This document shows positions 43,237 to 45,492 of a DNA stretch of 64,000 nucleotides, piece after piece. The notes beneath the pieces are model-generated. The model searched no databases. It had not been told where the DNA came from and worked only from the letters and a program-made list of their open reading frames with translations. Position 1 is the first letter of the stretch. Every line of letters begins with the position of its first letter. The translations under genes were made by a program, and so were the position numbers. This DNA comes from Planomicrobium okeanokoites. GTDB taxonomy: Bacteria; Bacillota; Bacilli; Bacillales_A; Planococcaceae. The stretch spans positions 248,001-312,000 of the forward strand of contig NZ_QQRS01000003.1 of assembly GCF_003428875.1 (NCBI RefSeq). The letters are read 5' to 3'.

Positions 43237-43374
43237 GGAATCTACTCCTCTTTGATTATTCTAATACTTTTTATTCGACAGTTACGTTCTAAAACCTTCC
43301 TGTCAGATGAAAATAAAAAAGAGGTTTGTTTTTCTGTTACCTTATGATAGGATTTGGGTAACAAATAAATTATG

Positions 43375-43459
43375 CACTGGGGGAGCCGCTTTTCGGGCTG
43401 AGACAAGCATTGCTTGGACCCTTTGAACCTGATCTGGATTATGCCGGCGGAGGGAAGTG
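43375..43459 (+). promoter_or_regulatory. TPP riboswitch (THI element) before lipM
   Basis: The 85-nt element shows the conserved TPP aptamer parts: GGGGGAGCC at the 5' side, GGGCTGAGAC, then GACCCTTTGAACCTGATC and GGATTATGCCGGCGGAGGGA. CACT (43375-43378) and AGTG (43456-43459) close P1. A second hairpin using AAGTGG (43455-43460) with CCACTT (43486-43491) competes for the 3' strand of P1 and could be the switch. It is followed by an intrinsic terminator and then lipM. TPP riboswitches normally control thiamine genes. Confidence 0.93.
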
Positions 43460-43493
43460 GTAAATGCATGCTTGTTCGGATGCAACCACTTTG

Positions 43494-43531
43494 CACTGCT
43501 GTCCATTTTTATGGAAGCCGTGTATTTTTTT
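43494..43531 (+). terminator. riboswitch expression-platform terminator
   Basis: Arms CAC/GTG, GCT/AGC and TCCAT/ATGGA stack into one hairpin with a TTTT loop and small bulges, followed by TATTTTTTT. It lies between the TPP aptamer and lipM, with 22 nt to the start codon. Confidence 0.8.
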
Positions 43532-43553
43532 GTGCAAAAAAGGAGGAGAAGCG

Positions 43554-44378
43554 ATGGAGGAAACATGGGGATTCATCGATTCCGGCCACAATAGCCCAGG
43601 GTTCAATATGGCTCTGGATGAATTGATGCTGGATTGGCTGGACAAAGGGGAAATCGGACCAACCATCCGGTTTTACGGCTGGTCACCTGCGGGCATTTCG
43701 ATCGGCCGTTTTCAGGATGCCGATAAAAAAATCGACTTCGGGCAGGCGTCAGCTTACGGAGCGGAAATCGTCCGAAGGCAGACAGGCGGACGCGCTGTGC
43801 TGCACGACCAGGAATTGACATACAGTGTAGTGGTGCCTGAATCTCATCCGGCGATGCCGCGTTCTGTAAAGGAAGCTTATTCGGTTATTTCAAAAGGTTT
43901 ATTGGAAGGCTATAGGGAACTTGGCATCAGCTCAGAGTTTGCAATACCGGAGTCATCGATGGAGAAAACGGATTCAGCTGTCTGCTTTGATAAGTCGTCC
44001 TGGTATGAACTTTTGGTCGATGGCAAGAAAGCCGCCGGCAGCGCTCAGATGAGAAAGAAAGGAATCATCCTGCAGCATGGCTCCATTCCCATTGAAATTG
44101 ACAGCGTGAAGCTATTCGATTTATTCAGTTATCCTTCACTCGAAATAAAACATCGGGCAAGGGAAGCGTTCAAGGAAAAAGCCATATCCATCAACGCGGC
44201 GACCGGCAAATCCTTTGTCTACGATGAAGTGAAGGCCGCTTTTAAAAAAGGCTTTGAAAAAGGGCTCGGCATTAAATTGGAACCGCTTGCGCTGTCAGAT
44301 GCAAAATTGGTGGAAATCAATCAGCTGGCGGAAACGAAGTATAAAAATCTTGATTGGAGTTACTCAACTGAAAAATAG
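43554..44378 (+). CDS. lipM: LipM octanoyl-[GcvH]:protein octanoyltransferase
   Basis: The 274-residue protein matches B. subtilis LipM (278): ETWGFIDSGHNSPGFNMALD at the start, RFYGWSPAGISIGRFQ, VRRQTGGRAVLHDQELTYS, and SAVCFDKSSWYELLVDGKK with the catalytic Cys (near 144). It moves octanoate from acyl carrier protein to GcvH, the first step of lipoate assembly. ATG 43554 has AAGGAGGAG upstream; the frame from 43464 lies in the riboswitch leader. It is cotranscribed with lipA, 11 nt downstream. Confidence 0.93.
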   Translation: MEETWGFIDSGHNSPGFNMALDELMLDWLDKGEIGPTIRFYGWSPAGISIGRFQDADKKIDFGQASAYGAEIVRRQTGGRAVLHDQELTYSVVVPESHPAMPRSVKEAYSVISKGLLEGYRELGISSEFAIPESSMEKTDSAVCFDKSSWYELLVDGKKAAGSAQMRKKGIILQHGSIPIEIDSVKLFDLFSYPSLEIKHRAREAFKEKAISINAATGKSFVYDEVKAAFKKGFEKGLGIKLEPLALSDAKLVEINQLAETKYKNLDWSYSTEK

Positions 44379-44389
44379 GAGGAGTTTAA

Positions 44390-45334
44390 ATGTCGAAACA
44401 AGAAGAATACATACGGAAACCGGATTGGCTGAAGGTGAAAATCAATACGAACGAATCGTTCACGGGACTCAAGAAATTGATGCGGGAGAAAAAGCTGAAC
44501 ACGGTGTGCGAGGAAGCAAGATGTCCGAATATCCATGAATGCTGGAGTGAGCGTAAAACCGCCACCTTCATGATTCTTGGGGACACCTGCACGAGAGGCT
44601 GCCGCTTCTGCGCGGTCAAAACAGGTTTGCCGAACGAGCTTGATCTGGGCGAGCCGGAACGCGTCGCGGAATCAGTTGAAATCATGGGCTTGAAACATGT
44701 AGTGGTCACTGCAGTGGCACGGGACGATCTGAAAGACGGCGGCGCAGCAGTATTTGCTGAGACAGTGCGGGCGATCCGGAGAAGAATGTCGGCAACGACT
44801 GTGGAAATCCTGCCTTCTGATATGAAAGGCGATTACGAAAGCCTCCATACACTGATGGACAGTGCGCCGGATATTTTCAATCACAATATCGAAACCGTCA
44901 GACGTTTGACGAAGCGGGTGCGTGCCCGGGCGATGTATGACCGTTCACTTCAGTTGCTGGAGCGGGTCAAGGAAATTGCGCCGAACACGCCGACCAAGTC
45001 GAGCATCATGGTCGGGCTTGGAGAAACGAAGGAAGAGATTATCGAAACAATGGATGATCTGCGCGCGCACAACGTAGACATTATGGCGATCGGCCAGTAC
45101 CTGCAGCCAACCAAGAAGCATCTGAATGTGGAGCGCTATTACCACCCGGATGAATTCGCGGAACTGAAGGAAATTGCGTTGTCGAAAGGCTTCAGCCATT
45201 GCGAAGCAGGGCCGATGGTGCGCTCTTCCTATCACGCGGATGAACAGGTCAACGCGACATCGGCACAGCGCCGCATCAAGTACATGAAAGGCTATGAGTC
45301 GCAGGGCAAGACATTGGAAGTGGAAACTTTTTAA
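44390..45334 (+). CDS. lipA: lipoyl synthase
   Basis: The 314-residue radical SAM enzyme inserts two sulfurs into octanoyl groups. It has the auxiliary cluster motif [13 protein letters not shown] (about residues 38-50) and the radical [11 protein letters not shown] (about 65-72). It ends with the family [10 protein letters not shown]. With LipM it makes lipoyl groups needed by pyruvate and 2-oxoglutarate dehydrogenases and the glycine cleavage system. It shares the TPP-riboswitch leader with lipM. Confidence 0.95.
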
Positions 45335-45351: not shown

Positions 45352-45377
45352 GCCATCGCTCTTGCGATGGCTTTTTT
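45352..45377 (+). terminator. terminator of lipM-lipA
   Basis: GCCATCGC and GCGATGGC form an 8-bp stem with TCTT loop, followed by six T. Confidence 0.92.
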
Positions 45378-45431: not shown

Positions 45432-45492
45432 TATATAACGCAAACAACCACCGATATGTCGCAAACAAATGCCGATATAACGCAAACAACCG
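45432..45492. repeat. three-copy tandem repeat, exact 21-bp period
   Basis: CGCAAACAA starts at 45439, 45460 and 45481, with CCGATAT between copies. The unit differs from the 32.1-kb array but shares CCGAT, CAAA and the 21-bp period. In the + frame it reads ITQTTTD-type heptads; no ribosome site supports translation. Confidence 0.85.

Follow-up and report, generated by a model that had tools for sequence, protein, structure and literature searches.

A candidate TPP riboswitch ahead of the lipoate synthesis genes lipM and lipA in Planomicrobium okeanokoites and its relatives

The TPP riboswitch is one of the most widespread riboswitch classes, and in its usual layout the P1 helix of the aptamer is joined to an antiterminator and a terminator. 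One survey, covering 564 TPP sites from 249 genomes, sorted the regulons into two categories, thiamin synthesis and the transport of thiamin or its precursors, and the string "lipo" is absent from its main text (PMC3766115). The glycine riboswitch before gcvT/gcvH offers a parallel, in that a protein carrying the lipoyl group is encoded downstream of it (PMC12452182), but this riboswitch has another ligand and controls the lipoyl carrier rather than the synthesis of lipoate. A 2022 review knows of no riboswitch class with lipoic acid as its ligand (PMC9971707), and lipA features only as a predicted small-RNA target in the accessible portions of two further papers (PMC4035088, PMC5387305). A link between TPP riboswitches and lipoate is not mentioned in the accessible text of these five papers or of PMC5049849, PMC9495176 and PMC2848557. 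Nor was any report of one found in the open-licence PMC literature (preprints and subscription journals lie outside it); an earlier note on this DNA likewise knew of none.

The locus described here lies in a 64-kb window (by which we mean the whole stretch analysed, 64,000 nucleotides of contig NZ_QQRS01000003.1 of P. okeanokoites). Its leader has the same aptamer family, and the same P1/antiterminator/terminator layout, as the TPP riboswitches with terminator platforms that precede thiamine genes (tenA, thiT, ykoF), but here the target is lipoate synthesis and a thiamine gene is absent. The riboswitch class is therefore a known one, whereas the lipoate target is new as far as the open-licence literature shows. 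The features of the locus are as follows.

43343-43348, plus strand: putative -10 element TATGAT, without a good -35 (by eye; similar in the leaders of several relatives)
43369-43472, plus strand: TPP riboswitch aptamer (THI element, RF00059; cmscan, all 105 model positions)
43375-43459, plus strand: P1 helix, CACU 43375-43378 with AGUG 43456-43459 (RF00059 alignment)
43445-43461 pairing with 43485-43506, plus strand: predicted antiterminator (minimum-energy fold of transcripts ending in the terminator loop)
43492-43531, plus strand: intrinsic terminator, arms 43492-43506 and 43511-43524, U7 43525-43531 (by eye and folding)
43540-43546, plus strand: Shine-Dalgarno sequence AAGGAGG (by eye)
43554-44378, plus strand: lipM, predicted LipM-type octanoyltransferase, 274 aa (Pfam LplA-B_cat, BPL_LplA_LipB)
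44390-45334, plus strand: lipA, lipoyl synthase, 314 aa (TIGR00510)
45352-45377, plus strand: terminator-like hairpin GCCATCGC-TCTT-GCGATGGC-T6 after lipA, likely the operon end (by eye)

That a full TPP aptamer stands ahead of lipM, as the earlier note had claimed, was borne out with Infernal: the element scores 76.7 bits against the RF00059 cut-off of 54.3 (cmscan on the window, E 2.2e-13) and is the sole Rfam match at gathering thresholds across the 64 kb. It ends 81 nt before the start of lipM, and the open reading frames of the window confirm that no thiamine gene separates it from lipM-lipA. By a simple estimate, the chance of a TPP aptamer falling in the 300-nt same-strand leader of one given gene is about 0.0002. 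The core segments CUGAGA, GAACCUGAU and GCG.AGGGA are all present, and they are invariant or nearly so across 26 leaders. A target in thiamine metabolism is typical of the TPP regulon and is no part of the RF00059 class definition; the genes downstream here are lipM and lipA. We infer that this RNA binds TPP and regulates lipM-lipA.

The product of lipM is predicted to be an octanoyltransferase of the LipM type, which would transfer octanoyl groups to GcvH. It matches PF21948 (129.5 bits) and PF03099 (82.1 bits), falls below the cut-off of the NCBIfam LipL model (19.6 of 450 bits) and passes none of the NCBIfam ligase models (28.8-108.4 bits, cut-offs 280-800); we use the name LipM because of these low scores and the kinship of the protein with lipM-type genes. 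A VCF motif, whose cysteine is presumably the catalytic residue of LipM, is kept in 116/116 LipM rows (duplicates included); 98 of these match CFx(1-4)WYE and the remaining 18 retain VCF. Solved structures similar to LipM are lipoate ligases only (E 5e-13 or weaker). LipA scores 405.8 bits against the TIGR00510 equivalog (cut-off 310.25), and its gene begins after a spacing of 11 nt. The genome holds a single lipM-type gene and a single lipA match, and a search of it found no second, unregulated copy of either; two other LplA-family genes, at C23 and C24, appear by eye to be LipL-like and LplJ-like. Between the terminator-like hairpin that follows lipA and a DUF2975 gene sits an imperfect tandem array (45433-45491, 2.8 copies of a 21-base unit, ATATAACGCAAACAACCACCG).

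Our reading of the leader, to which we give a probability of roughly 0.78, is that of a TPP-sensing transcription attenuator working in the OFF direction. Bound TPP would keep P1 and the P4/P5 arm folded, leaving the 5' arm of the terminator free; the terminator would then form and transcription would halt ahead of lipM, so that plentiful TPP would shut off de novo lipoate synthesis. When TPP is low, the 3' side of the aptamer would instead pair with the terminator 5' arm as an antiterminator, RNA polymerase would read through, and LipM and LipA would be made. The predicted antiterminator has the parts that such a switch would use: 43445-43461 comprises the 3' side of P4/P5 together with the P1 3' strand, its partner 43485-43506 takes in the terminator 5' arm, and the pairing encloses a hairpin at 43455-43491. 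The earlier note had proposed a competing hairpin. The short anti-P1 hairpin at 43455-43491 adjoins the terminator and is compatible with it, and we rejected it as the competing structure; in the folds, what excludes the terminator is the longer pairing of 43445-43461 with 43485-43506. The terminator that was likewise said to lie directly before lipM is recovered by eye and by folding but not by a simple consensus scan for sigma-70 promoters and terminators, which reported neither in the lipM leader. Its stem is interrupted by one mismatch and one bulge, and a simple scan may therefore miss it. A translational switch, in which a freed ACCACUUU strand would pair with AAGGAGG, could be drawn for the window and was dropped, as relatives of the same subgroup lose the pairing (by eye).

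When 23 of the 28 consensus pairs of the aptamer were imposed on the window leader, the probability of the terminator at the end of the U-tract was 0.97, against 0.47 without constraint, and the mean probability that the terminator 5' arm pairs upstream, once the growing transcript had reached position 43510, was 0.30, against 0.74 when the RNA was free. In silico, the platform of the window leader is thus predicted to be coupled to P1. The full window leader is 8.8 kcal/mol less stable with the aptamer imposed (-45.6 versus -54.4 kcal/mol free), a deficit that TPP binding must pay or that kinetics must avoid. Twenty-three of the 28 distinct leaders (29 loci) were folded, and the counts that follow are raw, with no shuffled baseline. 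With P1 forced at the loop stage, upstream pairing of the terminator 5' arm drops in 22 of the 23, L042 being the one leader to move the wrong way; at full-length equilibrium the terminator probability goes up in 11, is equal in 7 and is lower in 5. Because this rise occurs in just 11 leaders, most of the 23 would need a kinetic switch, and on OFF switching the full-length folding of the other leaders is equivocal. In the G271 leader the terminator probability is merely 0.38 even with P1 forced. The same equilibrium figures can be turned towards a switch of the opposite sign, in which TPP binding promotes read-through and abundant TPP favours the making of lipoate: 12 of the 23 leaders lack a higher terminator probability under forced P1 (5 are slightly lower), and such an ON switch would best suit the idea, taken up below, that TPP and lipoyl supply are tuned together. 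Against it, the P1 3' strand is common to the predicted antiterminator, which is the usual OFF layout, and we consider an ON switch very improbable. The OFF direction is given here as a prediction of the models.

Across the relatives several types of platform can be told apart in the leaders: those of the window group, those of a larger group whose terminators are of the CACCGCUU/AAGCGGUG type, and those of G265 and G271. The G265 and G271 platforms are unrelated in sequence, and a terminator-like hairpin is kept despite the differences. Leaders of the larger group have ACCGCUU as the 5' arm of the terminator itself, and the 3' strand of P1, AAGUGGU, can pair with it. The aptamer of G271 (L097 2219-2318) is altered in J2/4 and P4, where UCGUACUCG replaces UUGAACCUG, with an apparently compensating change in P4 (by eye); the score is weaker, at 69 bits. 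For covariation we aligned the 26 leaders with window-type and larger-group platforms. Over P1 and the lower terminator stem, 96.4% of cells are paired against a shuffled mean of 92.9, and the covariation score is 0.165 against a shuffled 0.101 (best slid version 0.142); in both measures none of 500 shuffles was as high, although the shuffles ignore the kinship of the leader sequences. One P1 pair changes from C-G to U-A, a compensatory change, in 4 of the 26 leaders, and in the terminator both sides change at 3 of the 8 pairs counted. The total of 4 pairs changed on both sides was reached in 60/500 shuffles and the 7 further pair types in 242/500, which makes these two measures weak; 12 of the 14 changed cells stem from one four-leader subgroup.

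The arrangement recurs among relatives. A close type of lipM (LipM match E 1e-91 or better) is present in 31 of the 261 genomes of the order: 26 belong to the genus itself, 2 to genus g36 and 3 to genus g27. Every one of the 31 has lipA immediately downstream, and at 30 of these 31 loci the lipM leader contains a TPP aptamer that scores above the cut-off (19 genomes together with G025, G070, G089, G184, G190, G218, G220, G265, G271, G084 and G142). Among named relatives, the nearest ones carrying the locus (Planococcus halotolerans SCU63, P. salinarum, P. beigongshangi, Planococcus sp. MER TA 32b, Planococcus sp. CAU13 and Planomicrobium sp. Y74) each have the aptamer. It lies 72-107 nt from lipM in 21 of the 26 leaders (in the remaining 5, one of them that of the window, the measurement ended prematurely at an in-frame start codon further upstream), about 92 nt away in G265 and 147 nt in G271.

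Outside the close type the picture differs. Ordinary-lipM leaders of the same family gave a TPP aptamer over the cut-off in 0/41 cases (L032-L038, L053-L067 and L068-L086; LipM 45-52% identical), drawn from the roughly 230 genomes of the order without a close LipM match. The same genus, which has at least 20 such genomes, contributed 16 of the 41. These unlinked genes encode the same two de novo lipoate enzymes as the window but differ in that, where both could be placed in a same-genus genome, lipA and lipM are far apart or on separate contigs (in G002 no lipA was found), in the lack of the aptamer, and in forming separate clades. The survey of Planococcaceae lipM leaders that the earlier note had suggested thus found the aptamer to be recurrent with the close type and absent from the 41 ordinary leaders examined. 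Beyond the order, the aptamer was found in 0/22 lipM loci scanned (L019/L052, L030, L031, L045-L047, L098-L112, L142). In 6 of these 22 lipM adjoins lipA (G041, G289 and G334 of family f7; G419, G509 and G564 of family f41); their gene order is that of the window and the f41 proteins fall in its clade, but all 6 are without the aptamer. Within the 31, the sole exception is G228, which has the lipM-lipA pair with no aptamer and, at E 0.5, no aptamer remnant upstream of lipM; its state may be a natural loss or the condition that preceded a gain. By eye, its upstream region (L095 740-860) resembles that of G265 (L096 600-880) in the promoter part and then passes directly into the ribosome site of lipM. 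The switch seems dispensable in some hosts, to judge from G228 and the three f41 genomes. In L017 (G022), lipA lies in two frames (residues 1-65 and 59-309), through a frameshift or an assembly error, and this split gene is the only strong lipA match of that genome.

These distributions bear on whether the leader has any meaning for lipoate at all. It could be a relic or a hitch-hiker: lipM may have picked up the leader of a thiamine gene by accident, for instance through deletion of that gene. The genome of P. okeanokoites has four TPP aptamers, that of the lipM leader included, and the others precede tenA-thiM, thiT and ykoF-ykoE (genes by eye). The tenA aptamer is the closest to that of lipM, at 76% identity (the other two are at 57% and 55%), as a captured leader might be, and the aptamer-free pair of G228 points the same way. 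A relic would not be expected, though, to keep a full aptamer at 30 of 31 loci, with terminator-like hairpins despite differing platforms and neighbours, or to show compensatory changes in P1 and the terminator. The loss of a thiamine gene from between aptamer and lipM, which the earlier note had offered as its alternative, was rejected: a gene is seen in this gap at none of the loci, and the surroundings of the cassette differ from group to group. We regard a relic as improbable, if less so than an ON switch. The proposal that a TPP riboswitch controls lipM-lipA is, in contrast, well supported in silico, by the conservation of the aptamer (30/31 loci), the terminators and the covariation, and to that extent the central claim of the earlier note holds.

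What such control would be for is a separate matter. Making the thiamine pyrimidine de novo requires ThiC, which was found in 0/22 genomes searched in the genus and in 8/14 others. These species therefore probably cannot make the pyrimidine themselves, and their TPP level should track environmental thiamine or its precursors. As a caution, diatom genes predicted to carry TPP riboswitches are reportedly unregulated by thiamine (PMC9544697). A study of S. aureus describes LipM as acting solely in de novo lipoate synthesis and LplA1 salvage as independent of LipM (PMC5049849). Tentatively, and at somewhat less than even odds, we suggest a vitamin-scarcity programme as the purpose of the switch. 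High TPP would signal a rich medium, and low TPP would turn on thiamine salvage and de novo lipoate synthesis jointly; lipoate would be made de novo when vitamins are scarce, and lipoylation would be left to LplJ salvage when they are plentiful.

TPP and lipoate serve the same 2-oxoacid dehydrogenase complexes, and the same RNA would work equally well if the supply of TPP (for E1) and of lipoyl groups (for E2) were being tuned together. An OFF-type switch, however, would give less lipoate enzyme the more TPP there is, that is, when E1 is best supplied, and this rationale, which is that of the earlier note, consequently fits poorly; it would have to be recast as compensation, the cell raising E2 lipoylation when E1 is limited by TPP. 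Moreover, 19/19 aptamers chosen from seven relatives precede thiamine genes, and with the three others of P. okeanokoites the 22 checked stand before thiamine-like genes and none before a 2-oxoacid dehydrogenase (by eye). Matching of E1 and E2 is thus an unlikely purpose, behind the vitamin-scarcity programme that we favour.

The protein trees suggest how the arrangement came about. In the LipA tree (64 rows), 29 rows with the TPP aptamer group with G228 and three f41 rows (support 100/100), apart from 22 ordinary family rows of which eight are from the same genus; the split LipA of G022 was omitted because of its broken reading frame. In the LipM tree (72 rows), 30 such rows group with G228 and two f41 rows (support 100/99), with 27 ordinary family rows outside. 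Both trees are midpoint-rooted, for drawing only. Since they agree, the pair is probably not a vertical orthologue of the family's genes and, judged from the proteins, probably represents an acquired cassette that replaced them. No second lipM or lipA was found alongside it in the own-genus and g36 genomes searched. The neighbours of the cassette vary, with isochorismatase and DUF2975 genes in the window group and, by eye, aldo/keto-reductase-like genes in G001 and G089, peptidase-like genes in G184 and G190 and others in g27, which fits aptamer, lipM and lipA moving as one unit. A search for a phage origin gave no PHROG match, and 43 plasmid records match LipM, all at under 60% identity and, among the ten matches listed, at 24-26%. 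Of the lipM-lipA pairs beyond the order, those of family f41 (L098, L100, L142) are the closest seen; they have no aptamer, and the family may be the donor or a sister lineage; the aptamer may have been gained before the f41 split and then lost there, or gained later. On balance we think it likely that a cassette of aptamer, lipM and lipA displaced the unlinked native genes in part of the Planococcaceae, coupling de novo lipoate synthesis to the level of TPP.

Lipoate synthesis would, if this is true, have its first known riboswitch, as far as the open-licence literature shows, and a widespread riboswitch class would gain a cross-cofactor role. A conserved lipoate target would show the level of one cofactor gating the making of another through RNA alone. 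Whether thiamine switches off lipoate synthesis would become a testable question in environmental bacteria, for which the lineages that lack the switch (G228, and congeneric species with unlinked genes) would provide natural controls.
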